From the NCBI RefSeq assembly GCF_036017915.1, contig NZ_CP107929.1:496001-560000 (forward strand): DNA of 64,000 bases, in the 5' to 3' direction. The position numbers and the translations under genes were made by a program. Positions 37,368 to 54,908 of this stretch are shown here, piece by piece; the first letter of the stretch is position 1; the number at the start of each line of letters is the position of its first letter. The stretch comes from Micromonospora sp. NBC_00421 (GTDB taxonomy: Bacteria; Actinomycetota; Actinomycetes; Mycobacteriales; Micromonosporaceae). The notes under the pieces are model-generated. The model made no database searches and had not been told where the DNA came from. It saw nothing but the letters and a program-made list of their open reading frames with translations.

Positions 37368-40082
37368 ATGGTCGAGCCGGTGACTCCGGAGCCTTCCGGG
37401 TCCGTTCCGGACGGGCTCCCGGCGGGTGGCGTCGAACTGCTCTCCCTGCTGACCCGGTTGCTGCGCCGGCCCCGCCGGGGCGACCACCGGCTGCCGGTGA
37501 TCTGGCTGGTCCGGGCCGTCGCCGGTAGTGACCCGGGTGCGCTGTTGCGGCGCTTCGTCGGGCGGGGCGTCGGTCGTCGGGTGCCGCATGCCGTACTGGA
37601 TCTGGCGGTCCGTCGCGACATCTCGGACGTGCCGGCGTTGCTGCGGGAACTGCACAGGCAGTTGTCGCTGGAGGCGTTCGGGGCGGCCCGGCTGCGGTTC
37701 CGGCACTACCCGCTGGCCGACTGGCTCATGCAGCAGACCCTGGGCGTGGGCACCGGCCCTGCCGGCCCGGCCGACTCTGCCGACCCGGCCGACCCCGCCG
37801 ACAGCGGCCGGGCCACCCTGGTCCGTCGCCTGCGTGACCGGCGGGGCCGGCGGCCCGTCGACGAGCCGCAGGTCAGCGGGGAATCGGGGGTCGGCACGGC
37901 GCTCCAGGTGCTGCTCTGGCTGCTGCGCCGCGCGGTGCCCAGCGTGGTGTTCCGGATCGCCGTCTCCGGCCGGGTGCCGGTCGTCGGAGGTCAGTACCGC
38001 TGGTTCATGCGGCAGCAGTACCTGGCCCCCCGCCAGTCGGTGACCTTCCTCGGGTTCGCCGAACGCCTCACCGCCGGTTGGCGCGACGGCGAGCAACCGG
38101 CCCAGGTGGACAAGCTGCTGTTGCACGCCTTCCTGGAGGACCTGCGGCAGGCGTACCGGCGACGGGTCTGGCGGCCCGGGGACTGGCGACGGACCGCCTA
38201 CCCGGTGCTGCTGCTCGACGGGGTGACCGTCGGCAGCGTCGGGCACACCCTGGCCCGGCTGCTCAACGACGTCCGCAACGAGACCGGGCGCAACGATCCG
38301 CTGCTGGTGGTGGCGCTCGCCGCCGAACCGCCACCGGAGCTGCCCGGCACCCGCCCGCTGCGCGAGGCGGACGACGCGGTCGACGAGTGGGCCGAGGCGG
38401 TGACCGAGACCCGACGGCTGCGGCGGCCGGCAGCCTGGCTGGTGGCGTTACGGCCGGACGCCGACGACGCCACGCCGCCGCCGGGGGTGGTCCCGCCCGC
38501 GCTGGTCGCCCCCGATCCGCCGTGGTGGGCGCGGCGGTTCCTACCGGCGGCGGTGGTGCTGGCGCTGCTGGTCGGGGCCGGTGCATGGGCGGACAGCCGC
38601 TGGACGACCGACTGCCATCCGGCGCTGACCGGTCAGGTGCGGGTGCGGTTGATCGCCGGGGAGTGCGTCGGCTACAGCGACGGCGCGGCGCAGGTGTTCA
38701 ACAGCGAGCCCGGCCAGGACCGGCTGCGGGCGGTGCAGCGGCGGATCTTCGCGCAGAACCGGGCCGCCGAGGAGGTGTGGCGGCGCAGCGACCACCGTCG
38801 CCCATACCTCACCCTGGTCTACCTGGGCACCCTCACCGGAAACCGGACCCGGGCGGACGAGGAGTCGTACGTCTCTGAACGGGAGGAGCTGGAGGGTCTG
38901 GCCACCACCCAGTACGCCCTGCTCAAGGAGTCGGCGGCGGCCGACGGCGCGGCCCTGCTGCACGTGGTGGTCGCCAACGGGGGCCGGCAGATGCGCCACG
39001 CCGGGCCGGCGGTGGCCATGCTGGAGGGTCTGGCCCGTGAGGATCCGACGGTGCTCGGGGTGGTGGGGCTGGTGGAGAGCCGGACCAGCACCGCCTCGGC
39101 GTTACGGGAACTCAACCGGGTCGGCCTGCCGGTGCTCGCGCCCACCCTGTCCGCCGACCGGATGGATCAGAACTCCAGCCTCTACCTGCAGATCTCCGCG
39201 CCCAACTCGGCGCAGGCCGCGATGATCGAGGTGTACGCCCGGCAGGTGCTGCGGGTGACCGAGGCGCACGCCTACTACAGCACCGGGGAGGACAGCTCCC
39301 TCACCGAGGACCTCTACGTCGGCACCCTGGTCGACGGGTTGCGCCAGCGGTTCGGCACCCGGCTCACCCGGCTCGACGAGTGGCGTACCGGGCAACGGTT
39401 GACAGGCGAGTGCGGTTACCGGGGGGTGCTGGTGTTCGCCGGGCGTTGGTCGGAGTTCGACGGTTTCCTGCGGGCGTTGAAGGAGTGCGGCGGCAACCCG
39501 CCCCGGCACCTGGTCGGCGACGATTCGGTCAACAGGTACATGGCCAACCCGGGGCTGCGGGTAAGCGCCCCGGGCAACCTGCCGGTGACGTACGTGTCGA
39601 AGGCGGCCCTGGCCACCTGCGCCGCGCTGCGGGCCGCGCAGGCCGCCGGGGACGACGCCCGGGGCAGCTTCCTGACCTGGGTCGGCTCCGCCGGCCTGCT
39701 CGATCCGCCGCGCTGCCGCGACGGTGCCGGCGCGCCGGTCGGCGAGCGGGTCAGTCTCGCCTACGACGCGGCGATGATGGTGGTGCGGGCGGTGGAGAGC
39801 CTCGCCGCCCGGCTGCGGCACGCCGATACCGGTCGGCGCTGGGAACCCCGCGCGGTCAACCCGGTCGGGGTGCACGCGGAGGTGCTGCGGCAGAACGCCG
39901 CCGCCGGCTACCCGGGGGTGGCCGGGGTGGTCCGGTACGCCCCCGACTCCGGGGAGCCGGTCGCCAAGCGGTTGGCGTTGCTGCGGGTGGCCCGGGTGCC
40001 GGACGTCGTCGCCGAACCGGTCGAGGTGTTCCACTGCGGTGCCGCCGACAGCGGGCCGGACCCGGGCTGCCGGCCGGTCTGA
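37368..40082 (+). CDS. Membrane-anchored periplasmic-binding-fold (type I) receptor with large cytosolic domain
   Basis: A 904-residue protein from ATG 37368 (CGGAGG upstream). Residues 1-385 are predicted cytosolic, with no recognisable Walker A; the stretch YPVLLLDGVTVGSVGHTLARLLNDVRNE near 280 resembles a Walker-B-like strand. One membrane helix follows (about 389-408, RFLPAAVVLALLVGAGAW), and residues 409-904 are extracellular. The outer part has the pattern of a type I periplasmic binding fold as in Leu/Ile/Val-binding and receptor-ligand domains (LVYLGTLTGNRTRADEESYV, VLGVVGLVESRTSTASALRELNRVGLPVLAPT). This is not an ABC transporter component: no permease is nearby; instead an FtsK-like ATPase follows. 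Role unknown; an envelope sensor is the simplest idea. Confidence 0.75.
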   Translation: MVEPVTPEPSGSVPDGLPAGGVELLSLLTRLLRRPRRGDHRLPVIWLVRAVAGSDPGALLRRFVGRGVGRRVPHAVLDLAVRRDISDVPALLRELHRQLSLEAFGAARLRFRHYPLADWLMQQTLGVGTGPAGPADSADPADPADSGRATLVRRLRDRRGRRPVDEPQVSGESGVGTALQVLLWLLRRAVPSVVFRIAVSGRVPVVGGQYRWFMRQQYLAPRQSVTFLGFAERLTAGWRDGEQPAQVDKLLLHAFLEDLRQAYRRRVWRPGDWRRTAYPVLLLDGVTVGSVGHTLARLLNDVRNETGRNDPLLVVALAAEPPPELPGTRPLREADDAVDEWAEAVTETRRLRRPAAWLVALRPDADDATPPPGVVPPALVAPDPPWWARRFLPAAVVLALLVGAGAWADSRWTTDCHPALTGQVRVRLIAGECVGYSDGAAQVFNSEPGQDRLRAVQRRIFAQNRAAEEVWRRSDHRRPYLTLVYLGTLTGNRTRADEESYVSEREELEGLATTQYALLKESAAADGAALLHVVVANGGRQMRHAGPAVAMLEGLAREDPTVLGVVGLVESRTSTASALRELNRVGLPVLAPTLSADRMDQNSSLYLQISAPNSAQAAMIEVYARQVLRVTEAHAYYSTGEDSSLTEDLYVGTLVDGLRQRFGTRLTRLDEWRTGQRLTGECGYRGVLVFAGRWSEFDGFLRALKECGGNPPRHLVGDDSVNRYMANPGLRVSAPGNLPVTYVSKAALATCAALRAAQAAGDDARGSFLTWVGSAGLLDPPRCRDGAGAPVGERVSLAYDAAMMVVRAVESLAARLRHADTGRRWEPRAVNPVGVHAEVLRQNAAAGYPGVAGVVRYAPDSGEPVAKRLALLRVARVPDVVAEPVEVFHCGAADSGPDPGCRPV

Positions 40083-40120
40083 CCGGTGGGCGGGTCGTGC
40101 GCCGCGACCCGGTGGGGCGC

Positions 40121-40126
40121 TAGGGT
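40121..40126 (+). promoter_or_regulatory. Possible internal promoter before the FtsK-like gene
   Basis: TAGGGT at 40121-40126 fits a -10, 34 nt before GTG 40160, with GGGGAG at 40152-40157 as ribosome-binding site. The 77-bp gap therefore may hold a second promoter, though readthrough from the receptor gene is likely too. Confidence 0.35.
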
Positions 40127-40159
40127 TCCCTCGATTCGTCCGCGCGTCGGTGGGGAGCA

Positions 40160-42670
40160 GTGGTGGGCAGGCTCGCATCGGCGTACGGGCAGGCGGTCGC
40201 CGCGCACCGGCAGGCCCGGCAGCGGTGGACGGCGGCCCGTGCGCTGCTGGACCGGTTGGCCGGGCAGCCCGTCCCGGAACGCACCGCCGACCTGGTCGCC
40301 CGGCTGGCGCGGCTCGCCGACGCGCTGGCCGCCCCGCAGGCGTCCGGGGGTCCGGCGCCGGTGCGCATCGGGGAGGCGTCCACGGCGGACGGTCGGTTCC
40401 CACTGCTGTTGCCGTTGGGTGCCGGCCGGCACCTGGCGGTCGACCGGGACGCCCGCGATCCCCGGGTGGCGGTGCTGTTGCGGGTGCTGGTGCTGCGGCT
40501 GCTCACCACGGCCGCACCGGGCAGCGTGCGGGTGGTCGGCATCGACCCGGCCGCCTGGGGTGCCACCTTCATCCCGCTGCGCCCGTTGCGCGACGCCGGG
40601 GTGCTCGGCGGCGTCGCCACCACCGAGGCGGAGATCGGCGCGCTGCTGGACACCGCCGAGGCGCACGCCCGCGCCGGTGCGGGGGAGGCGGAGCTGCTGC
40701 TGGTGGTGGCCGCGTCCGCGCCCGGCCCGCGGGAACTGGCCCGGCTCGCCGCGCTCACCCACGCCGGGCCGACCGCCGGGGTGTGCGTGCTGTTCGCCGG
40801 GCGCGCGGTGACGACGCCCGGCCAGGCCGCCCCGGTGTTGGGCGGCACCACCGAGGTACGCCTGGACGAACGCTACGCCCGGATCGGCGACCCGCCGGGG
40901 CAGCCGTTCAGCGACGACGGCACCGGGCTGGCCGTGCCGGTGTTGCTCGACGGCGATCCGCCCGCCCCGGCCGTGCAGGCGTTGGCCGACCGGCTGGGCG
41001 CGCAGGTGCGCCGGGACACCGCCCTGCACCTGGCCGACCTGCTGCCCGAGCGGCGCTGGACCGGCTCCGCCCGCGCCGGCCTGTCGACAGTGGTCGGCCG
41101 CTCCGGTCGTACCCCGGTGGGTCTGGCGTTCGACGACGCGACCCCGCACTGGCTGGTCGGTGGCCGCACCGGCGCGGGCAAGACGGTCTTCCTGCTCGAC
41201 GTGCTGTACGGGCTGGCGGCCCGGTATTCGCCGACGGAGCTCCAGCTGTGGTTGCTCGACTTCAAGGAGGGGGTGAGCTTCACCGAGTTCGTCCCCACCG
41301 ACCGGGACCCGTCGTTCCTGCCGCACGCGCGGGCCGTCGGCGTCGAGTCCGACCGGGAGTACGGCCTGGCTGTGCTCCGGGAGCTGCGCCGGGAGCTGGG
41401 CCGGCGGGCCGGGCTGTTCAAGCGGCACGGGGTGACCAAGCTCGCCGACCTGCCGGACACCGAGCCGGTGCCCCGCACGGTGGTCGTGATCGACGAGTTC
41501 CACGTGCTGTTCGCCGGCAACGACCGGCTGGCCCGGGAGGCCGTCGACCTGCTGGAGGAGCTGGGCCGCAAGGGCCGCTCGTACGGCGTACACCTGGTGC
41601 TGGCAAGCCAGAGCACAAGCGGCGTGGAGGCCCTGTACGGCCGGGCCGAGTCGTTGTTCGGGCAGTTCGCGTTGCGGGTGGCGCTGCCCGGCGGCGAGGC
41701 GGTGCTCGGCCCGCGCGGGGTGGTCACCGGCGCGACGGAGATCGGCACGGCGGTGGTCAACACCGCTGCCGGGGCGGCCGGCGCGGACACCCTGCTGCGG
41801 TTCCCCGACGCGCACGCCGACGCCCGGCAGCTCGCCCGGCTGCGCTACGAGCTGTGGGACGCGCGTCCTGACGACAACGGCCCGCCCGCGGTCTTCCGTG
41901 GCTACGCCACCGCCCACCTGGAGGACGAGCCGGTCCCGGCCACCGCTGCCGCCGCCCGCCGCCCGACGGTGCTGGTGGGCCGCACTGTCGACGTGGCCGG
42001 CAGCACCGCCCGGTTCGACCTGGACGCCTCGCCCGGCCGGCACCTGGGCGTGGTGGGCACCTCGGCGACCGGCGGGCACGTGCTGCGGGCCGCCGCGCTG
42101 AGCCTGGCCGGTCAGCACCGGCCCGGGGAGGCCGATTTCGTGTTGGCGTCGCTGGTGGCCGCCGCCGACGAACTTGCCGACGACACGGCCGTCGGGCTGA
42201 AGGCCGCCGGGCACCCGGTGACCCGGGTCGACGCGGCCGGGCTGCGCGCCCGGATCGGTGCGCTGGTGGCCGACCCGGGCGGGGGCGGCCGGACGTACCT
42301 GGTGGTCTTCGGGGTGGACGCGGCAGGTGCGGCGCTCGCCGTCGCCGACCCCGACACCTTCCGGTCCGGCCACGACGACCTGCGGTCGCTGCTCCGGACG
42401 GGGCCGGGGCACGGGGTGCACCTGCTCGGCTGGTGGCGGGGCCTGCGCCGGCTCGCCGACGACCTCGGCGGCAGCCAGAACCGCGACGACGTGGCCTGCC
42501 TGGTGGCGTTGAACGTGCCCGCCGACGATCTCGGGCTCTATCTCGGGGTGACCGACCTGACCTGGACGCCACGCCCCGACCGGGCGCTGCTGGTCGACAG
42601 GCACGCCCAGCGCACCGCGCTGATCGTGCCGTTCGTCCGCCCCGGGTACCACCCCGAAGAGGAGCGCTGA
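40160..42670 (+). CDS. FtsK/SpoIIIE-domain ATPase, soluble, with two ATPase modules
   Basis: An 836-residue protein without membrane helices. Residues 1-60 look like a coiled coil (SAYGQAVAAHRQARQRWTAA); the main FtsK/SpoIIIE ATPase has Walker A GGRTGAGKTVF near 334, LWLLDFKEGVSFTEF near 365 and Walker B TVVVIDEFHVLFAGND near 441, plus VLASQSTSGVEAL. A second module (about 590-800) has a degenerate P-loop (GVVGTSATGGHVL). It lacks the FtsK membrane domain and the DNA-reading gamma domain, so it is not the chromosome translocase; tandem ATPase modules recall EccC of type VII secretion, but no Esx partner is near. GTG 40160 or 40163 starts. Substrate, DNA or protein, is unknown. Confidence 0.85.
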   Translation: MVGRLASAYGQAVAAHRQARQRWTAARALLDRLAGQPVPERTADLVARLARLADALAAPQASGGPAPVRIGEASTADGRFPLLLPLGAGRHLAVDRDARDPRVAVLLRVLVLRLLTTAAPGSVRVVGIDPAAWGATFIPLRPLRDAGVLGGVATTEAEIGALLDTAEAHARAGAGEAELLLVVAASAPGPRELARLAALTHAGPTAGVCVLFAGRAVTTPGQAAPVLGGTTEVRLDERYARIGDPPGQPFSDDGTGLAVPVLLDGDPPAPAVQALADRLGAQVRRDTALHLADLLPERRWTGSARAGLSTVVGRSGRTPVGLAFDDATPHWLVGGRTGAGKTVFLLDVLYGLAARYSPTELQLWLLDFKEGVSFTEFVPTDRDPSFLPHARAVGVESDREYGLAVLRELRRELGRRAGLFKRHGVTKLADLPDTEPVPRTVVVIDEFHVLFAGNDRLAREAVDLLEELGRKGRSYGVHLVLASQSTSGVEALYGRAESLFGQFALRVALPGGEAVLGPRGVVTGATEIGTAVVNTAAGAAGADTLLRFPDAHADARQLARLRYELWDARPDDNGPPAVFRGYATAHLEDEPVPATAAAARRPTVLVGRTVDVAGSTARFDLDASPGRHLGVVGTSATGGHVLRAAALSLAGQHRPGEADFVLASLVAAADELADDTAVGLKAAGHPVTRVDAAGLRARIGALVADPGGGGRTYLVVFGVDAAGAALAVADPDTFRSGHDDLRSLLRTGPGHGVHLLGWWRGLRRLADDLGGSQNRDDVACLVALNVPADDLGLYLGVTDLTWTPRPDRALLVDRHAQRTALIVPFVRPGYHPEEER

Positions 42671-43378
42671 GTGGCCGGCTACGACGAGTACGCGGCGGCG
42701 GTCCGTCAGCTCTCCGCCCGGATCCGGGAGGGCGAGCGGGGTGCCGCCGCCGAGGCGGAACGCCGGCGCACCCTGCACGCCGGGGTGACCCGGCTCGGTC
42801 AGCGGCTGGCCGCCCAGGAGCAGCGCCTCGGCCAGCTCGGGGCCGCCGCCGGCCTGCCCCCGGCGACCGACCCCGCTCCGGGTGCTGTTCCCGCTCCGGA
42901 GTCGATCGCCGGGGCCGGGGCTGCTTCCGGGGCCGGGGTGGCTCCCGGGTCCGGAGCGGACGGTGATCCGGCGGTGGTGTTGGCGGAGGCGGCCCGGCTG
43001 GTCGACGAGGCGGACCGGCTGGGGCAGCAGGCCGAGGCGCTGGCCCAGCGGCCTGCTCTGCTGCCCACCTGGTCACCGACGGCCCGCGCGGTCGCCGTCT
43101 ACGTCGGCTGTGCCGCCGTCGGGGCGCTGACCATGCTGGTGCTGGTGGTCGCCAACGGCATCGGCGTGGTCGACGGCTTCACCCTGGCCACGCTGACCTG
43201 CGCCGGCCTGCCGCTGGTCTCCTTCGTCGCCGGTTGGCTGATCCTCGGGCGGTGGGGACGACCGGCCCTGGCCGACACCGATCCGCCCCGGTACGCCCCG
43301 CTGGGCTTTCTCGTCTGCGCCCTGCTGGTGCCGCTGGCGTACTGCGTGACCCTGCTGCTGTTCCGCCTGGTGCGCTGA
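42671..43378 (+). CDS. Coiled-coil protein with three C-terminal membrane helices
   Basis: The 235-residue protein starts with GTG directly after the FtsK-like stop, so it is translationally coupled. Residues 1-60 are a strong coiled coil (EYAAAVRQLSARIREGERGA), residues 60-97 a Pro/Ala/Gly linker, and 98-127 a second coil. Three membrane helices follow (about 139-160, 168-190 and 208-232). The N-terminal coil resembles that of the FtsK-like protein, suggesting it might recruit the ATPase to the membrane; that is inference. I do not recognise the family. Last gene of the three-gene operon. Confidence 0.75.
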   Translation: MAGYDEYAAAVRQLSARIREGERGAAAEAERRRTLHAGVTRLGQRLAAQEQRLGQLGAAAGLPPATDPAPGAVPAPESIAGAGAASGAGVAPGSGADGDPAVVLAEAARLVDEADRLGQQAEALAQRPALLPTWSPTARAVAVYVGCAAVGALTMLVLVVANGIGVVDGFTLATLTCAGLPLVSFVAGWLILGRWGRPALADTDPPRYAPLGFLVCALLVPLAYCVTLLLFRLVR

Positions 43379-46118: not shown

Positions 46119-46194
46119 CAATGACGTAGTGGTCCCGTCTTGTCCTGACTAGTGCGATGTGATCAAATGGCGGCGCAGACCAGGGAGACCACAC

Positions 46195-46416
46195 ATGCCC
46201 GCCAAACCCAAGTGGGCGCAGCTCGCGGACAACATCCGCGAGAAGATCGCGTCCGGTGAGCTCGCCCCGGGGGATCAACTCCCCTCAACCGCGCAACTCC
46301 GCGCCGAACACGGAGTCTCGGCGGGCGTTGTCCGACAGGCGATCCTCGTGCTTCAGACACAGGGCCTCGTCGAGGGCGTTCATGGGCTCGGGGTGTTCGT
46401 CGCCGAGCGGGAGTGA
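46195..46416 (+). CDS. Minimal GntR-family winged-helix regulator
   Basis: A 73-residue protein that is little more than a GntR DNA-binding domain: WAQLADNIREKIASGELAPGDQLPSTAQLRAEHGVSAGVVRQAILVLQTQGLVEGVHGLGVFVAERE. There is no effector domain, so it may act constitutively or by dimerising with another protein. AGGGAG precedes ATG 46195. It is divergent from the Cys-motif operon and separated from it by a palindromic operator candidate, so it probably represses itself and/or that operon. Such single-domain GntR genes are common on actinobacterial integrative elements. Confidence 0.85.
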   Translation: MPAKPKWAQLADNIREKIASGELAPGDQLPSTAQLRAEHGVSAGVVRQAILVLQTQGLVEGVHGLGVFVAERE

Positions 46417-46585: not shown

Positions 46586-46849
46586 GTGAGCGCGGCGGAG
46601 ATGATCGCGAAGCTGGCAGCGGCCTCGCAGAAGTTGGACGAGGCGCGGGCGAAGACGGCAGCGGCGGCGCAGGACGCCGCCGAGGCACGGTCCCTGGTCG
46701 CCGGGGCGTTGCAGGGCATCGCCGCCGGTCCGCTGATCGGCATGATCGACAGCTACCGGCAGGCGCTCACCCAGGCCGCCCAGGGTGGTCAGCCAGCCAA
46801 GCAGCAGGTCCAGGAGACGATCACGAAGGTTCGTGCGCTGGGAAACTGA
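46586..46849 (+). CDS. DUF6244-like small helical protein
   Basis: An 87-residue protein from GTG 46586 (SAAEMIAKLAAASQKLDEARAKTAA), preceded by GGGGGAA; ATG 46580 would add two residues. The first 60 residues form a long helix or coiled coil, then AGPLIGMIDSYRQALTQAAQ and KQQVQETITKVRAL. The size and pattern match the DUF6244 family of small actinobacterial proteins of unknown function; this assignment is from memory of the family and could not be searched. It is loosely reminiscent of WXG100-like helical hairpins in size but lacks the WxG turn. First gene of a cluster with lower GC. Confidence 0.65.
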   Translation: MSAAEMIAKLAAASQKLDEARAKTAAAAQDAAEARSLVAGALQGIAAGPLIGMIDSYRQALTQAAQGGQPAKQQVQETITKVRALGN

Positions 46850-47202: not shown

Positions 47203-47641
47203 CGATGACGTCGAGCAGTTCGTTCGCGACACACTGCACTTCGCTGTGAAGCAGCAGCCGGCCGAGTTCGATCAATCTCTCAGTCGAGTCTCCGGCGAGC
47301 GGGAGCGTCAAGCTGCTCTCGAATTGCTCGTTGCGATCTCGCTCTATGTCGCCATCGACATCTGCGGCGAAAGGCCGTCGGCACAGCAGGTCAGAGAGCT
47401 TGCCGTGAGGGTCGCTGATGCGGAGTCATGGAGTTCGGCCACTCCGGACGACGTCGAGAAGTTTCTCACCACGGCATTGGCGGGTGGCCGCCTGATCGAC
47501 GAACTACCTGCGAACACTGTCGTCGTCCTCGCCTTTGTGATTGCCGCGAGTCTGCTTGCGTCAAAGCCCAAGGCGGAAGGGGAGTGGTGGTTCAACTACC
47601 TGGACAAGGTGGAGGCGGCTATCGAGGTGGCGGGGCGATGA
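47192..47641 (+). CDS. Hypothetical helical protein with hydrophobic segment
   Basis: A 149-residue protein from ATG 47192 (MKVDDDVEQFVRDTLHFAVK), with GGAGG at 47182-47186 deciding the start. It is mostly helical; segments ALELLVAISLYVAIDICGE and TVVVLAFVIAASLLA are hydrophobic and could be buried or membrane associated. No recognised domain. It overlaps both neighbours (11 bp upstream; ATGA downstream), so the three genes are co-translated. GC is lower than the flanks, hinting at horizontal origin. Confidence 0.65.
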   Translation: MKVDDDVEQFVRDTLHFAVKQQPAEFDQSLSRVSGERERQAALELLVAISLYVAIDICGERPSAQQVRELAVRVADAESWSSATPDDVEKFLTTALAGGRLIDELPANTVVVLAFVIAASLLASKPKAEGEWWFNYLDKVEAAIEVAGR

Positions 47642-48078
47642 CAGTGGCTGAGGTGGGCGGGCGCGACGGTGGCGAGTTGGACGGGTTCCAGGTGGGGCGG
47701 GTGCCGGAGGGTGCCGGGGAGTTGGTGTCGGACTTCGCCTCCGAGTGGGAGGACGTCAGCTTCGCCAGCCGGGTCTGGGAACGTGCGGTGGAGGACGGCT
47801 TCCGGGTCGACCTGCGGGTGCACGTGTTGCGGGGCGAACGGTTGACCACACTGGTGCAGTTGCGCGAGTTCCTGGCGGGCTACCACGAGCGCGATTCCGC
47901 CGAGTGGCCCCTGGCCGAGTTCGGTCGCGGCGACGGCGTCGGGCTGGCCGGTGGGGGCGAGGCGTTCTGGCTCGTCCGGCCGGGCCTCGCGGTCGACGTG
48001 CTGGTGGACGTCGAGCGGTTCGACGCGGAAACCGCCATCGAGGTCGCCAGCTCCATCACGGAGCTACCCCACGGCTGA
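47638..48078 (+). CDS. Hypothetical soluble protein
   Basis: The 146-residue last gene of the cluster, ATG 47638 (MTVAEVGGRDGGELDGFQVG), with ATGA overlap to its neighbour. It is acidic and globular: LVSDFASEWEDVSFASRVWERAVEDGFRVDLRVHVLRGERL, then FLAGYHERDSAEWPLAEFG and FWLVRPGLAVDVLVDVERFDAETAIEVASSI. No family is recognised; the alternating strand/helix pattern suggests an alpha/beta fold. It is followed by a family B palindrome and then the restriction-modification operon. Confidence 0.65.
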   Translation: MTVAEVGGRDGGELDGFQVGRVPEGAGELVSDFASEWEDVSFASRVWERAVEDGFRVDLRVHVLRGERLTTLVQLREFLAGYHERDSAEWPLAEFGRGDGVGLAGGGEAFWLVRPGLAVDVLVDVERFDAETAIEVASSITELPHG

Positions 48079-48433: not shown

Positions 48434-51400
48434 GTGGATCATCGACAGGTACGCCGCTTGGCGGAGCAGTCTGCCAACTTCGGGTTCTTGGCGGAGCACC
48501 CGCTGCTGGTCTGGTACGGCGCAGGGGCGGAACTGCTCGTCTACGTCGACGCGCAGTCGGCGATGCTCAAGACCCGCAGTTTCGGCGAGGTGCTGGCAAA
48601 GGACCTGGTGCGCCGCACCAACGCCAAGGCGGTCAGCGGCAAGTTCGTCCACCAGGTGCAGGCCCTCAACGCCGACGGTGCCCTGAAACCGAACGTGTAC
48701 GCCGCGTTCGAGAGGTTGCGCAACGTCGGAAACGAGGCGGCGCACGAGCATCTCAGCGAGGTGCGGGAGGCGTTGACGCTGCTGCGTACCTGCTTCGAGT
48801 TGGGGTTGTGGTTCCACCGGGCGGTGACCGACGACCGTGCCCCGATCGGGTTCGTGCCGCCGTCCCCGCCGCAGCGGCAGGTGCCGGCCGAGGCGGTGGC
48901 CGGTCTCCAGGCGGAGCTCGATCGCTACCAGCGGGAGCTTGCCGAGACGAAGTTGCTGTTGGCGGGGCAGCCGTCGCTGGCCCTGGCCCAGGCCGCCGCG
49001 AGTGTCGCCGCCGAGCAGGCGGTACGGGACGCCGACGCCCGCCGGCCGCAGGCCGCCGCCCTGCTCGCCAGCCTGGAACCGGCCGCCGAGGCGGCGCGGC
49101 AGGCGTTCGACAGCGCGAAGGTGGCGAGGGTGTCCGCCGCGAGGCGCGAGGACTTCATCGCCCGCGCCCGTCGTGCCTCCCAGGAACCGCTGAACGAGGT
49201 GCAGACCCGGGTCGAGATCGACCGCCAGCTCACCGCCGCCGGTTGGCAGGTCCAGGATCAGAGCCAACTCAACCTGTACGCGGGCAGCGGCGTCGCCGTC
49301 CGTGAGGTGACCCTGGCGACGGGCCGGGCCGACTACCTGCTCTACGTCCACCAGCGGCTGGTCGGGGTGATCGAGGCCAAGCGGGAGGGCACCGCCCCGC
49401 GTGGTGTGGAGGCGCAGCTCGACCGCTACCTCGACGGGTTGACCGCCGAGCAGCGGCTCAGTGCCTGGCGGCGGGACGCGGCGTTGCCGTTCGGGTACGT
49501 CGCCACCGGCACCGAGACCGCCTTCGTCAACCGGCTCGACCCGTTTCCGCGTACCCGGGAGGTGTTCGCGTTCCATCGGCCGGAGACGCTCGCGCGGTGG
49601 ATGCGCGAGGCGGACGACGAGCCGGACGCGCCGACGCTGCGGGCCCGGCTGCGCCGGATGCCGGCGCTGGACCGGCTCGGCCTACGCCCGGCGCAGGTCG
49701 AGGCGGTCGACGGTCTGGAACGGTCGTTGGCCGACAACCGGCCCCGGGCGCTGATCCAGATGGCCACCGGGGCGGGGAAGACCTTCACCGCGGTCACCAG
49801 CAGCTACCGGCTGCTCAAGCATGCCCGCGCCCGCCGCATCCTGTTCCTGGTCGACCGGAACAACCTCGGCAAGCAGACCCTGCGCGAGTACGCCGGCTAC
49901 CAGACCCCCGACGACGGGCGGAAGTTCACCGAGTTGTACACGGTGGACCGGCTCTCCGGAGCCGGCCTGCTCGAATCGTCCAACGTGGTGACCTCGACGA
50001 TCCAGCGCCTGTACGGGGCGTTGCGCGGCAGCGAGTTGCCCGACGTCGACCTCGACGATCGGGCCTACGACAGCTACGACCTCGACGAACCGGCCGAGGT
50101 CGGCTACAACCCGCAGTTGCCGCCGGAGACGTTCGACCTGATCGTGGTGGACGAGTGCCACCGTTCGATCTACGGCAAGTGGCGAGCGGTGATCGAATAC
50201 TTCGACGCCTTCGTGGTGGGGCTGACGGCGACCCCGGTGAAGCAGACCCTCGGCTTCTTCCAGCAGAACCTGGTGTCGGAATACACCTACGAGCAGGCGG
50301 TCGCCGACGGGGTGAACGTCAACTTCGACGTCTACCGGATCAAGACCGAGATCACCGAGGGCGGGCAGAAGATCGAGGCCGGCACCGTCGTGCCGCTGCG
50401 CGACCGCCGCACCCGGGCCGAGCGCTACCAGGAGCTGGAAGACGACTTCACCTACGCGGGCCGCCAGGTCGGCCGGTCGGTGATCTCCAAGGGGCAGCTC
50501 AAGCTGGTGCTGGACACCTTCCGCGAGCGGCTGTTCACCGAGATCTTCCCCGGCCGCTCCACGGTGCCCAAGACGCTGATCTTCGCGTGCGACGACAACC
50601 ACGCCGAGGAGATCGTCGCCATGGTGCGGCTGGTGTTCGGGCGCGGCAACGAGTTCGCCAGGAAGATCACCTATTCCTCCCGGCGGGACGGCGACAACCC
50701 CGACACCCTCATCCAGGCGTTCCGCAACAGCCCCGAGCTGCGCGTCGCGGTCACCGTCGACATGATCGCCACCGGCACCGACGTCCGGCCGCTGGAGTGT
50801 GTGTTCTTCCTCCGGCCGGTGCGCAGCGCCACCTACTTCGAGCAGATGAAGGGGCGCGGGGCACGCACCATCGACCCGGCCGACTTCCAGTCGGTCACCC
50901 CCGACGCCCAGGTCAAGGAGCGGTTCGTCATCGTCGACGCGGTAGGCGTCACCGAGGCCGACCTCGACGAGGCGGTGCCGCTGCAACGGCACACCGAACA
51001 GCAGATCTCGCTGCGTGACCTGCTGCGCAAGGCCGGCACCCTGACCGCCGACCCGAACGAGGTGGCGACCCTCGCGTCCCGGCTGTCCCGCCTCGACCGG
51101 CAGCTCACCGACGACGAACGCGCCGAGTTGGCCGAGCTGGGCGGGCAGCCGCTCAAGGGCATCGTGCGCGGCCTGGTCGACGCCGTCGCCCCCGAACAGC
51201 TCAACCCGGCGACCCAGGCCGGGCCGGACGCCGTCCGCGACCTGCTGGCCGGCGCGCTGCGCCCGCTCGCCGCGAACCCGCAGCTGCGCGACCGCATCCT
51301 GGAGATCCGCCGCGCCCACGACATCACCATCGACGAGGTCAACGTCGACAACCTGGTGTCGGCCGCCGGGGTGCCCGCCGCCGATCGTGCCCAGGTGACC

Positions 51401-51925
51401 GTGCGGAGCTGGCACGACTACCTGGAACAGCACCGCGACGAGATCACCGCGTTGCAGGTGTTCTATGAGGGCAAGGGGCGGGTCAGCTACGACCAGCTCA
51501 AGGAGTTGGCAGCCCGGATCGCCCGGCCCCCGCAGGCGTGGACGCCGGATTCGCTGTGGCAGGCGTACGTGCTGCTCGGCCGGACCGCCGAGCAGTCCGG
51601 GCCGCGCGGGGTCACCGACCTGGTCGCCCTCATCCGCTACGAACTGGGCTACGACCAGGAGCTTCGTCCATTTCGTACGGCCACAGAGGAGCGTTTCCGT
51701 GGGTGGCTGCTGCGGCAGCAACAGGCGGGCGCTACCTTCACTGCCGATCAGGTGTGGTGGCTGGAGAGGATCAAGGACGTGATAGCGGTCAGCGTGGAGA
51801 TCACCCCCGACGACCTGGAAGGGGCACCCTTCACCGAACGCGGCGGCATCGACGGCTACGCGGGCGCCTTCGGCAACCGCGCCGAACCCCTCCTCACCGA
51901 ACTCAACCAGGAGCTAACCGCGTGA
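48434..51925 (+). CDS. hsdR: Type I restriction endonuclease subunit R HsdR (EcoEI type)
   Basis: An 1163-residue motor-nuclease. Residues 10-130 are DUF4145-like, about 150-245 a coiled coil, then the PD-(D/E)xK nuclease with RADYLLYVHQRLVGVIEAKREG (Glu/Lys near 314-316). The helicase has Walker A QMATGAGKTFTAV near 445, the DEAD-box variant VVDECHRSIYG near 573, LTATP near 597 and the C-terminal helicase lobe with RSATYFEQMKGRGART; an EcoEI_R_C domain ends the protein. It cleaves unmodified foreign DNA after ATP-driven translocation, using HsdS and HsdM. GTG 48434 is the first start before the conserved N-terminus. hsdS overlaps by GTGA. Confidence 0.95.
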   Translation: MDHRQVRRLAEQSANFGFLAEHPLLVWYGAGAELLVYVDAQSAMLKTRSFGEVLAKDLVRRTNAKAVSGKFVHQVQALNADGALKPNVYAAFERLRNVGNEAAHEHLSEVREALTLLRTCFELGLWFHRAVTDDRAPIGFVPPSPPQRQVPAEAVAGLQAELDRYQRELAETKLLLAGQPSLALAQAAASVAAEQAVRDADARRPQAAALLASLEPAAEAARQAFDSAKVARVSAARREDFIARARRASQEPLNEVQTRVEIDRQLTAAGWQVQDQSQLNLYAGSGVAVREVTLATGRADYLLYVHQRLVGVIEAKREGTAPRGVEAQLDRYLDGLTAEQRLSAWRRDAALPFGYVATGTETAFVNRLDPFPRTREVFAFHRPETLARWMREADDEPDAPTLRARLRRMPALDRLGLRPAQVEAVDGLERSLADNRPRALIQMATGAGKTFTAVTSSYRLLKHARARRILFLVDRNNLGKQTLREYAGYQTPDDGRKFTELYTVDRLSGAGLLESSNVVTSTIQRLYGALRGSELPDVDLDDRAYDSYDLDEPAEVGYNPQLPPETFDLIVVDECHRSIYGKWRAVIEYFDAFVVGLTATPVKQTLGFFQQNLVSEYTYEQAVADGVNVNFDVYRIKTEITEGGQKIEAGTVVPLRDRRTRAERYQELEDDFTYAGRQVGRSVISKGQLKLVLDTFRERLFTEIFPGRSTVPKTLIFACDDNHAEEIVAMVRLVFGRGNEFARKITYSSRRDGDNPDTLIQAFRNSPELRVAVTVDMIATGTDVRPLECVFFLRPVRSATYFEQMKGRGARTIDPADFQSVTPDAQVKERFVIVDAVGVTEADLDEAVPLQRHTEQQISLRDLLRKAGTLTADPNEVATLASRLSRLDRQLTDDERAELAELGGQPLKGIVRGLVDAVAPEQLNPATQAGPDAVRDLLAGALRPLAANPQLRDRILEIRRAHDITIDEVNVDNLVSAAGVPAADRAQVTVRSWHDYLEQHRDEITALQVFYEGKGRVSYDQLKELAARIARPPQAWTPDSLWQAYVLLGRTAEQSGPRGVTDLVALIRYELGYDQELRPFRTATEERFRGWLLRQQQAGATFTADQVWWLERIKDVIAVSVEITPDDLEGAPFTERGGIDGYAGAFGNRAEPLLTELNQELTA

Positions 51926-53412
51926 CCGACCTGCCACCTGGTTGGGAATGGTGCACGCTCGGCGATCTGGTCACCCGCATCGAGGCCGGAAAATCGTTTA
52001 CGTGTCACCCGCGCCCCGCACGCGACAATGAGTGGGGCGTGCTCAAGGTCAGCGCGATGACCTGGGGTGAGTTCCGTGAGCAGGAGAACAAGGCAGTTCC
52101 TGAGGGTCGAGAATTCGACCCGAGGTATGAGGTTCGGCCTGGGGACATCCTCGTAAGCCGCGCGAACACGGAACAGTATGTAGGCGCTCCGGTCCTGGTC
52201 CGCAAGTGCCGTCCCCGACTTCTGCTCAGTGACAAGAGCCTGCGATTGGTGCCGTCTCCCGAGATTGATTCCGCCTGGCTGCTTCGAGTTCTTTCCTCGC
52301 CGTCGATCAGGCGTCAGATATCCGCCCGCGCCAGCGGCCAGCAGGACTCGATGCGGAACATCTCCCAACAAGCGCTCCTGTCCCTGGAACTGCCCATCCC
52401 GCCGCTCGCCGAGCAGCGCCGCATCGTCGCGGCCCTAGAAGGTTATCTGTCTAAGGTCAAGGGAGCGGATGCACTTCTTGCTTCTGCCATGTCGAAACTG
52501 ATCTGCCACCGTCAAGCAACTGCACTCGCTGCTATCCGTGGTTCACTTGTATCGGATGACTCGACTGATCTCTCCGCGAGTTTACTGGTGGAGAAGATCG
52601 CTGGGCGGGCTGGGATTCTTCCTAGTGGCGATTGGCCTGTTCCTGCGTCGTGGGCGTGGTCGACGTTGGGGGACCTGTTCGAGATCTATGTCGGCTTCAC
52701 TCCGCGTAGGTCTGATCCGACATTATGGCAGGGTGATGTGCCCTGGGTGTCGAGCGGAGAGGTTGCTTTCGGGCGAATTAAAGCCACGAGAGAGAGCATC
52801 GCTCGGCAAGCAATTGGCAATACCGCTACCAAATTGCATGCCCCAGGCACCTTACTTCTTGCCATGATCGGTGAAGGCAAGACGCGCGGTCAGGTGGCAA
52901 TCCTTGACATCGAAGCTGCCCATAACCAAAATTGTGCATCAATACGCGTATCAAATACTCCGATTCTCCCCGAGTTTGTTTACATCTTTTTGATGGCGCG
53001 ATATGATCAGACGCGGCGTGCTGCTGCGGGCGGAAATCAGCTCGCCTTGAATCGAGGCATGATCCGCGAAATCCGGATTCCAGTTCCGCCAGTTGAAATG
53101 CAGGTGCGGATCGTTGAAGTCGCGAATGAAGCATTCTCTGCAAACGATCGGTTAAGCCTGGAGTTGGAGCGCGCTGTAGAGCGATCCGCACGGCTGGTGT
53201 CGTCGCTGTTGGCGGAGGCGTTTGCGGGGCGGTTGGTACCGCAGGATCCGAACGACGAGCCGGCCGCCGGACTGCTCGCCCGGATCAGGGCCGAGCGCTC
53301 GGCCACCATCCCGAAGCAGCGGACGCGCTCCCGGCGTACCCCCAAGGAGTTGGCGGCACCGCCGACCAGGGTGACCGGCGACGACTATCAGCAGGAGACC
53401 TTGCCACTGTGA
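51922..53412 (+). CDS. hsdS: Type I restriction-modification specificity subunit HsdS
   Basis: The 496-residue DNA-recognition subunit. It has two target-recognition domains: half 1 begins LPPGWEWCTLGDLVTRIEAG, half 2 VPASWAWSTLGDLFEIYVGF near residue 225. Each is followed by a conserved helix (LPIPPLAEQRRIVAALEGYL near 150; IRIPVPPVEMQVRIVEVANE near 375) that forms the central spacer. Bases 52440-53170 have clearly lower GC than hsdR and hsdM, as expected if the recognition domain was acquired by recombination. GTG 51922 overlaps hsdR by GTGA. The recognised sequence cannot be read. Confidence 0.94.
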   Translation: MTDLPPGWEWCTLGDLVTRIEAGKSFTCHPRPARDNEWGVLKVSAMTWGEFREQENKAVPEGREFDPRYEVRPGDILVSRANTEQYVGAPVLVRKCRPRLLLSDKSLRLVPSPEIDSAWLLRVLSSPSIRRQISARASGQQDSMRNISQQALLSLELPIPPLAEQRRIVAALEGYLSKVKGADALLASAMSKLICHRQATALAAIRGSLVSDDSTDLSASLLVEKIAGRAGILPSGDWPVPASWAWSTLGDLFEIYVGFTPRRSDPTLWQGDVPWVSSGEVAFGRIKATRESIARQAIGNTATKLHAPGTLLLAMIGEGKTRGQVAILDIEAAHNQNCASIRVSNTPILPEFVYIFLMARYDQTRRAAAGGNQLALNRGMIREIRIPVPPVEMQVRIVEVANEAFSANDRLSLELERAVERSARLVSSLLAEAFAGRLVPQDPNDEPAAGLLARIRAERSATIPKQRTRSRRTPKELAAPPTRVTGDDYQQETLPL

Positions 53413-54908
53413 GCACTGTGGATTCGCGCCGTCTGGTGCAGAAGCTGTGGAACTACTGTGACGTGCTGCGCGACGACGGCGTGTCGACCATCGATTATGT
53501 GGAGCAGTTGACGTTCCTGCTGTTCCTCAAGATGGCCGACGAGCGGGCCAGGCGGACGTTCCGGCCGGAGCAGATCGTGCCCGACGAGTTGAGCTGGCAG
53601 ACCCTGCTGGACGCCGAGGGCGACGACCTGGAGGTGCAGTACCGGCACATCCTCACCGGGCTGGCCCGGGAGGGCGGCACCCTCGGCACCATCTTCCGCA
53701 AGGCGCAGAACAAGATCCAGGACCCGGCGAAGCTCAAGCGGCTGATCGTCGACCTGATCGACAAGCAGGAATGGTCGGGCACCGGGGTCGACGTCAAGGG
53801 CGACGCCTACGAGGAGTTGCTGGCCAAGGGCGCGGAGGACGCGAAATCCGGCGCGGGGCAATACTTCACCCCGCGTGCGTTGACCGTCGCGATGGTCGAC
53901 TGCATGCTGCCCACCCCCGACGACACGATCACCGACCCGGCCTGCGGCACCGGCGGGTTCCTGCTGGCCGCCTACGACCACATCCAGCGTAACCACGGCA
54001 GCACCCTCACCCCCGACCAGCGGCGACGGCTCGCGGGCGGCGCGATCTCCGGCACCGAGCTGGTCGACGGCACGGCCCGCCTGGCGGCGATGAACATGCT
54101 GCTGCACGGCATCGGCACCCCGAACGGCCCGTCGCTGATCGCCGTGCGCGACGCCCTCGGCCGGGAGCCTGACCAGCGGGTCAGCCTGGTGCTGGCCAAC
54201 CCGCCGTTCGGGCGCAGTTCGTCGATCCGGATGGTGGGGGAGGACGGCCGGTCCTCCCGCGAGGAACGCGAGATCGAGCGTGCCGACTTCTGGGCCACCA
54301 CCGCCAACAAGCAGCTCAACTTCGTCCAGCACATCGCCGCGCTGCTGGAGATCGACGGCCGGGCGGCGGTCGTCCTGCCCGACAACGTGCTGTTCGAGGG
54401 CGGCGCGGGGGAGACCATCCGCCGCCGGCTGCTCAAGCAGTACGACCTGCACACCATGCTGCGCCTGCCCACCGGCATCTTCTACGCCGGCGGCGTCAAG
54501 GCCAACGTGCTGTTCTTCGAGCGCAAGCGCGCCCGCGAGGAACCCTGGACCCAAACCCTCTGGGTGTACGACTTCCGCACCAACCAGCACTTCACCCTCA
54601 AGCAGAACCCGCTGCGCCGGGAACACCTCCAGGATTTCGTCGACTGCTACCTGCCCGGCAAGGACCGCGCCGAGCGGGTGGAGACCGAACGTTTCCGCCC
54701 CTTCTCCTACGACGAGCTGATTGCCCGCGACAAGGTGAACCTGGACATCACCTGGCTCAAGGACGCCTCCCTGGAGGACGCCGACGCGCTGCTGCCACCC
54801 GAGGTGATCGCCCAGGAGATCGTCGAGGACCTCCAGGCGGCCCTACGCGAGTTCGCCGCCATCGCCGAAGCCCTCGGCGCGACAGCCTCACGGGTCGACA
54901 CCGACTGA
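53409..54908 (+). CDS. hsdM: Type I restriction-modification methyltransferase subunit HsdM
   Basis: A 499-residue N6-adenine methyltransferase: an N-terminal helical HsdM_N domain (YVEQLTFLLFLKMADE) and the catalytic domain with SAM motif DPACGTGGFLLAAYD near residue 176 and catalytic NPPFG near 263. It protects the host DNA at the HsdS target. GTG 53409 overlaps the hsdS stop by GTGA. The gene order R-S-M is less common than M-S-R, but all three are intact. Confidence 0.95.
   Translation: MSTVDSRRLVQKLWNYCDVLRDDGVSTIDYVEQLTFLLFLKMADERARRTFRPEQIVPDELSWQTLLDAEGDDLEVQYRHILTGLAREGGTLGTIFRKAQNKIQDPAKLKRLIVDLIDKQEWSGTGVDVKGDAYEELLAKGAEDAKSGAGQYFTPRALTVAMVDCMLPTPDDTITDPACGTGGFLLAAYDHIQRNHGSTLTPDQRRRLAGGAISGTELVDGTARLAAMNMLLHGIGTPNGPSLIAVRDALGREPDQRVSLVLANPPFGRSSSIRMVGEDGRSSREEREIERADFWATTANKQLNFVQHIAALLEIDGRAAVVLPDNVLFEGGAGETIRRRLLKQYDLHTMLRLPTGIFYAGGVKANVLFFERKRAREEPWTQTLWVYDFRTNQHFTLKQNPLRREHLQDFVDCYLPGKDRAERVETERFRPFSYDELIARDKVNLDITWLKDASLEDADALLPPEVIAQEIVEDLQAALREFAAIAEALGATASRVDTD

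Follow-up and report, generated by a model that had tools for sequence, protein, structure and literature searches.

A soluble EccC-like ATPase and its membrane partner in Micromonosporaceae: candidate parts of a minimal type VII-like export module

A 64-kb window of the 7.23 Mb chromosome of Micromonospora sp. NBC_00421 (the whole stretch analyzed here; positions 496,001 to 560,000 of NZ_CP107929.1) contains three consecutive genes that encode a receptor-like protein (P1), an FtsK-related ATPase (P2), and a small membrane protein (P3). Do these genes form one machine, and, if so, what does it move? The three open reading frames are present where a first-pass annotation, made from the sequence letters, had placed them. 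P1 (37368..40082, + strand) encodes 904 residues, P2 (40160..42670, + strand) 836 residues, and P3 (42671..43378, + strand) 235 residues. The gap between P1 and P2 is 77 nucleotides on the same strand, and P3 begins immediately 3' of the P2 stop, as that annotation had noted. The start of P2 is at 40160 or 40163, where the sequence GTGGTG is preceded by GGGGAG. P1 and P2 are real genes, because the homologues among the matches listed are mostly full length (43-90% identity for P1 and 65-92% for P2, the window's own copy excluded). The closest of the named homologues come from Micromonospora. As described below, P2 and P3 belong together and may work with a small helical hairpin protein encoded further downstream, whereas P1 is not a conserved member of the set.

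P2 and P3 are the core pair across Micromonosporaceae. The sequence 3' of P2 extends for 1.8 kb or more in 70 of 80 named P2 loci, which is enough flank to look for a partner gene, and a membrane protein of P3 size with at least two hydrophobic helices adjoins P2 in 68 of these 70 (the exceptions are loci L133 and L139). P3 of the window has a coil-like N-terminal part followed by hydrophobic helices at residues 141-159, 175-193, and 213-231. Two further P2-P3 pairs in the same genome, L012 at 1.755 Mb and L011 at 6.218 Mb, are paralogues of this one. The pair at L011:8924-12451 has a P2 copy in which Walker A has been lost; it lies beside ftsH- and folE-like genes and also adjoins a chromosomal gene set of VirB4-like, M23, and multi-helix proteins. 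In three loci from other genera (L061, L062, and L065), a P2-P3-hairpin set is found at a place like that of the L011 pair. In the region L012:8103-12776, Walker A is intact, and the P3-like and P2-like proteins are accompanied by a proline-rich coil protein of 356 residues and a hairpin of 86 residues that matches WXG100 weakly (E-value of 0.011).

P2, a soluble protein, is related to EccC, the ATPase of type VII secretion, and has the features of an EccC/EssC-type protein. An N-terminal coil is followed by three tandem alpha/beta domains, i.e., D1 (residues 68-213; 40361..40798, +), D2 (residues 308-534; 41081..41761, +), and D3 (residues 603-759; 41966..42436, +). D2 is the only domain with a Walker A motif (GGRTGAGKT, residues 334-342) and a Walker B motif (VVVIDE); Walker A is absent from D1 and D3. 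The predicted model contains three motor-like folds in tandem, with the Walker motifs in the middle fold alone. The tandem repeat rests on this model, because profile comparison among the domains gave no usable D1-D2, D2-D3, or D1-D3 match. The best whole-chain match in the PDB is EccC (4nh0, E-value of 4.3e-30), and D2 has the motor fold in common with FtsK/SpoIIIE. The correspondence of the domains is ambiguous: the profile aligns D1-D2 to the N-terminal fold and ATPase 1 of EccC, and, by structure, the three domains of P2 span residues 424-1315 of 4nh0. P2 stays below the NCBIfam equivalog cut-offs. Its sole hydrophobic window (residues 103-121) is a helix within D1, the N-terminal membrane helices of ESX ATPases are absent, and no match to the gamma-domain family was obtained, in agreement with the initial description of an FtsK-like ATPase that lacks membrane and gamma domains. 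In a sample of 150 Micromonosporaceae genomes, 16 of them Micromonospora, P2 was found in 137 (E-value of 1e-40 or better; paralogues counted). Most sampled members of the family carry an ATPase of this type in addition to an ordinary EccC. A class-wide sample gave P2 in 55 of 394 genomes at the same threshold.

When gene order was compared between the window and 38 loci, a further component emerged that the first-pass annotation did not contain, i.e., families of helical proteins of 86-87 residues encoded 3' of P3. The Micromonospora version is DUF6244, and elsewhere the position is taken by an 86-residue family that has no Pfam name; the link between the two families is of moderate strength. 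The DUF6244 protein of the window (46586..46849, +; PF19757, E-value of 3.3e-30) has 87 residues, and its gene is separated from P3 by opposite-strand genes and a short GntR regulator gene. We found no paper that names the DUF6244 family in the open-access literature. The hairpin gene lies within 6 kb downstream of P2 in 52 of the 70 loci (within 2.5 kb in 44) and was not detected in the other 18. The three-part composition first proposed holds for P2 and P3, and the third core part is this hairpin, not P1. Of 20 loci that belong to the class but to other families, 13 have the hairpin within 5 kb of P2. Among the remaining seven, L201 encodes an 88-residue protein whose WXG100 match (1.6e-5) is just under the family cut-off, and L200, L203, L204, and L205 have a 201-residue coil-like protein in its place. 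These four loci represent one family, and their module adjoins trxB/trxA-like genes. In L129 (11350-13322) and the Salinispora loci L123, L125, and L126, the hairpin is followed by a protein of 211 residues (MPTVIVPVG...) and by another hairpin match, which is weaker and is preceded in L129 by a glycine-rich hydrophobic stretch; a client of the module may be encoded here.

The 86/87-residue hairpins outside Micromonospora resemble WXG100 proteins at the level of sequence profiles. A profile of 26 hairpins could be aligned over 72 columns (probability = 85.4%, score = 32.0) with a profile built from the WXG100 proteins of relatives (22 sequences). This score is approximately twice that of the best shuffled control (maximum of 16.6 in 100 column shuffles); the reversed profile gave 16.9, the P2 coil 11.1, and the P3 coil 11.7. 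With a smaller set, the value was 56-60%. The alignment is collinear (9-80 to 7-78) with the turn glycine matched, the helices of the hairpins being inferred, and the hairpins share both the size and the turn glycine of WXG100 proteins. At the C-terminus, an aromatic-x-x-x-hydrophobic pattern is present in all 26 hairpins used and in 17 of 17 after relatives of more than 60% identity were dropped. The aromatic residue is fifth from the C-terminus in 26 of 27 sequences when the dropped outlier from L139, which has no aromatic there, is included, although aromatics make up 1.2% elsewhere. The C-terminal aromatic lies 37 residues past the turn glycine in 25 of 26 hairpins; in 12 of 22 WXG100 proteins, the residue 38 positions past the turn glycine is a Tyr, mostly with xxx and D/E after it. 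The acidic residue of the WXG100 YxxxD/E signal is replaced by a hydrophobic one in all 26 hairpins.

The position of the hairpin aromatic therefore agrees with that of the Tyr in the YxxxD/E signal to within one residue but not exactly, being closer to the turn, an offset that slightly lowers the odds of type VII-like export. Several observations weigh against a relation of the hairpins to WXG100 proteins. No scanned hairpin reached a Pfam or NCBIfam cut-off for WXG100, and Trp, and with it the W-x-G motif, is missing from 25 of 26 hairpins. The DUF6244 protein of the window does not match the WXG100 profile, and the C-terminal aromatic is found in none of 24 DUF6244 proteins.

We propose that P2, P3, and the 86/87-residue hairpin constitute a minimal type VII-like export module, and we assign this reading a probability of roughly 0.45. 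In such a module, the hairpin would be the substrate or cosubstrate, P3 the anchor, and P2 the driver. The N-terminal coil of P2 and the coil of P3 would hold P2 at the membrane, where P2 may assemble as a ring. ATP hydrolysis by the middle domain D2 would drive hairpin dimers or their clients across the membrane through P3, and the outer inactive domains may read the C-terminal end of the hairpin, by analogy with the way in which EccC reads its signal. P1 would be a separate ligand receptor that was placed in front of the module within Micromonospora and that may tune it but is not required. We put forward more tentatively, at odds against, the wider proposal that the module represents a distinct and widespread actinobacterial type of type VII-like secretion. 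In this type, a soluble EccC-like ATPase would be recruited by a coil-plus-three-helix protein to export WXG100-like hairpins whose C-terminal signal would be aromatic-x-x-x-hydrophobic; in some Micromonospora, the system would have become subordinate to a receptor of the periplasmic-binding type whose nucleoside triphosphatase (NTPase) domain is dead. Should protein export be its function, the module, with one motor, one small membrane protein, and one hairpin, would rank with the smallest of type VII-like machines. It would then offer a test of which parts of EccC suffice for translocation and of whether a membrane-embedded ATPase is needed, and DUF6244, the unnamed 86-residue family, and the P2-type ATPase would each gain a role.

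The module was compared with described systems. The survey of Garrett, Higginson, and Palmer (2024) defines type VII secretion system (T7SS) types T7SSa (ESX) and T7SSb-j (PMC11217815). These resemble the module in having an FtsK-related ATPase with tandem nucleotide-binding folds and a small helical hairpin beside it. However, their ATPase is membrane-bound with four folds, whereas P2 is soluble with three, and each T7SS type has further core parts, whereas the partner here is P3 (PMC11217815). The word Micromonospora has no occurrences in the main text of that survey (PMC11217815). A footnote of 2012 describes, for other phyla, an ATPase of similar kind that occurs with solo WXG proteins. 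The system in that passage shares the three-domain layout with the middle domain alone active, as well as the solo small hairpin; on the other hand, the passage gives no coil-plus-helix partner and calls the ATPase mobile, whereas P2 is near-universal in one family. No match to any Ecc or mycosin model was found in ten neighboring proteins of the window (EccB, EccE, and mycosin were searched for in this neighborhood and not genome-wide), and the two EccC sites (6.20 and 6.88 Mb) are the only places in the same genome where EccD exceeds its cut-off. For Micromonospora lupini, a genome paper reports a third "T7SS cluster" with the labels eccC, eccD, and mycP (PMC4182475). An ordinary ESX cluster was not adopted as an explanation: the M. 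lupini P2 locus (L091) contains no subtilase-like motif by a simple pattern search, its locus tags not having been matched to those of PMC4182475. The conflict systems of PMC7159879 are not this system, because the FtsK domains are described as predicted inactive in that paper. We noticed no paper in the open-access literature that describes the P2-P3-hairpin set.

Two other explanations dispense with type VII-like export. The first is that P2 is an FtsK/TcpA-like DNA pump anchored by P3, serving segregation, sporulation, or transfer, with the hairpin as a structural cofactor. Although D2 shares the motor fold of the FtsK/SpoIIIE DNA translocases, P2 differs from them in lacking a membrane domain and having two extra inactive domains. 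The missing gamma-domain match, a whole-protein architecture closer to EccC than to FtsK, and the recurrence of the small hairpin gene argue against a DNA pump, which we consider unlikely. The second is that P2 is a cytosolic scaffold or signaling ATPase located at the membrane, which would form with P3 and the hairpin a coiled-coil assembly in envelope growth or division. In its favor, all three proteins have a partly coiled appearance, the helix inside D1 is the sole hydrophobic segment of P2, and some loci lie in housekeeping-looking surroundings (folE by Pfam; trxA/trxB-, gcvH-, and trehalose synthase-like genes by eye). Such an assembly without export leaves unexplained both the EccC architecture and the presence of a WXG100-like partner whose C-terminal aromatic is conserved, and we regard it as equally unlikely. 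Export by P2, P3, and the hairpin remains our preferred reading, and of the original idea of a machine that moves DNA or protein, it is the movement of protein that fits, since the set resembles a type VII export core; a ligand-sensing set of three genes is unsupported as a conserved unit, as shown next by P1.

P1 is a single-pass receptor with a cytosolic N-terminal domain, one helix, and an extracellular type I periplasmic-binding (LivK/LivJ-like) domain (residues 478-904; 38799..40079, +). The latter has the two-lobed fold. The cytosolic part (residues 44-362; 37497..38453, +) takes a P-loop-like alpha/beta topology in the predicted model, with strands at residues 44-48, 74-78, 280-286, 313-318, and 358-362. 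The order of strands and helices fits this topology in a model of the whole protein, in which the domain was not folded separately. The Walker A pattern GxxxxGK[ST] was found in 0 of 37 P1 members, and, judging from the model, the domain is probably a dead P-loop-like (STAND-like NTPase) domain. A Pfam scan of the 37 members named no N-terminal family and detected ANF_receptor in 13. The region search with the N-terminal part gave 290 matches, of which the 120 listed resemble receptors of the same family or their fragments; the fold search returned the periplasmic-binding part only and excludes no fold family for the N-terminal domain. No paralogue of P1 was found in the same genome at an E-value of 1e-3. 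Unlike the LivK/LivJ-type substrate-binding proteins and receptors, P1 is tethered through one helix to the P-loop-like domain, and no ATP-binding cassette permease was recognized adjoining it.

The reading of P1, P2, and P3 as one ligand-gated envelope machine has in its favor the common strand and short gap in the window, and P1 (at least 750 residues) lies within 600 nucleotides upstream of P2 in 11 of the 80 named loci, all of them Micromonospora and one of them split. Full-length P1 is present in 8 of the 16 Micromonospora genomes, and the P1-P2 distance is 0.1-4.4 kb in all eight; two of these P1 copies carry an in-frame stop within the alignment. In other Micromonospora loci, P1 remnants adjoin P2-P3, or P1 is separated from P2 by a gene on the other strand. 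Outside the genus, by contrast, P1 (at least 900 bits) occurs in 14 genomes of the family and is shown beside P2 in none of them: in 11 the two genes share a contig at a distance of at least 170 kb, in 2 they are on different contigs, and in 1 P1 lies on a contig of 9.4 kb. The class-wide sample gave P1 in 18 of 394 genomes (E-value of 1e-25 or better), and, in the 10 genomes outside Micromonospora with both genes, P1 and P2 share a contig in 2 (34 and 38 kb apart) and lie on separate contigs of fragmented assemblies in 8. The first-pass annotation had itself named a lack of conserved neighborhood as the result that would overturn its three-gene operon, and this is the result for P1, while the P2-P3 part stands. 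The three genes are not one conserved operon, because P1 stands beside P2-P3 only inside Micromonospora; the best reading is that P1 is a recent, dispensable neighbor of the module, and a single ligand-gated machine is very unlikely. The most eye-catching gene, the receptor, is thus the least conserved part, which calls for caution. An anti-phage or conflict system is the least probable explanation, in spite of matches of P2 to SspH (67 bits) and mad8 (61 bits) in PADLOC and type I restriction genes downstream in the window; membership in a PADLOC defense system was rejected, since these matches are confined to the ATPase domain, neither P1 nor P3 gave any PADLOC match, and P2 is near-universal in the family rather than patchy.

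A scan for promoters and terminators performed no better than shuffled controls. The gene divergent from P1 (35680-37218) is M1-type aminopeptidase-like, and in L054 a relative of it is found in the vicinity of a distant homologue of P1. Directly 5' of the DUF6244 gene is that of the short GntR-type DNA-binding protein (46159..46416, +; PF00392, 2.2e-17). In four or more further Micromonospora loci (among them L087, L089, L102, and L112), the DUF6244 gene is likewise preceded by a GntR-like gene. A 146-residue protein with no Pfam or NCBIfam match is encoded at 47638-48078, and its relatives are found 3' of the DUF6244 gene in several Micromonospora loci. Further downstream (48458-54908), the HsdR- and HsdM-like type I restriction-modification genes occupy a stretch of lower G+C content.
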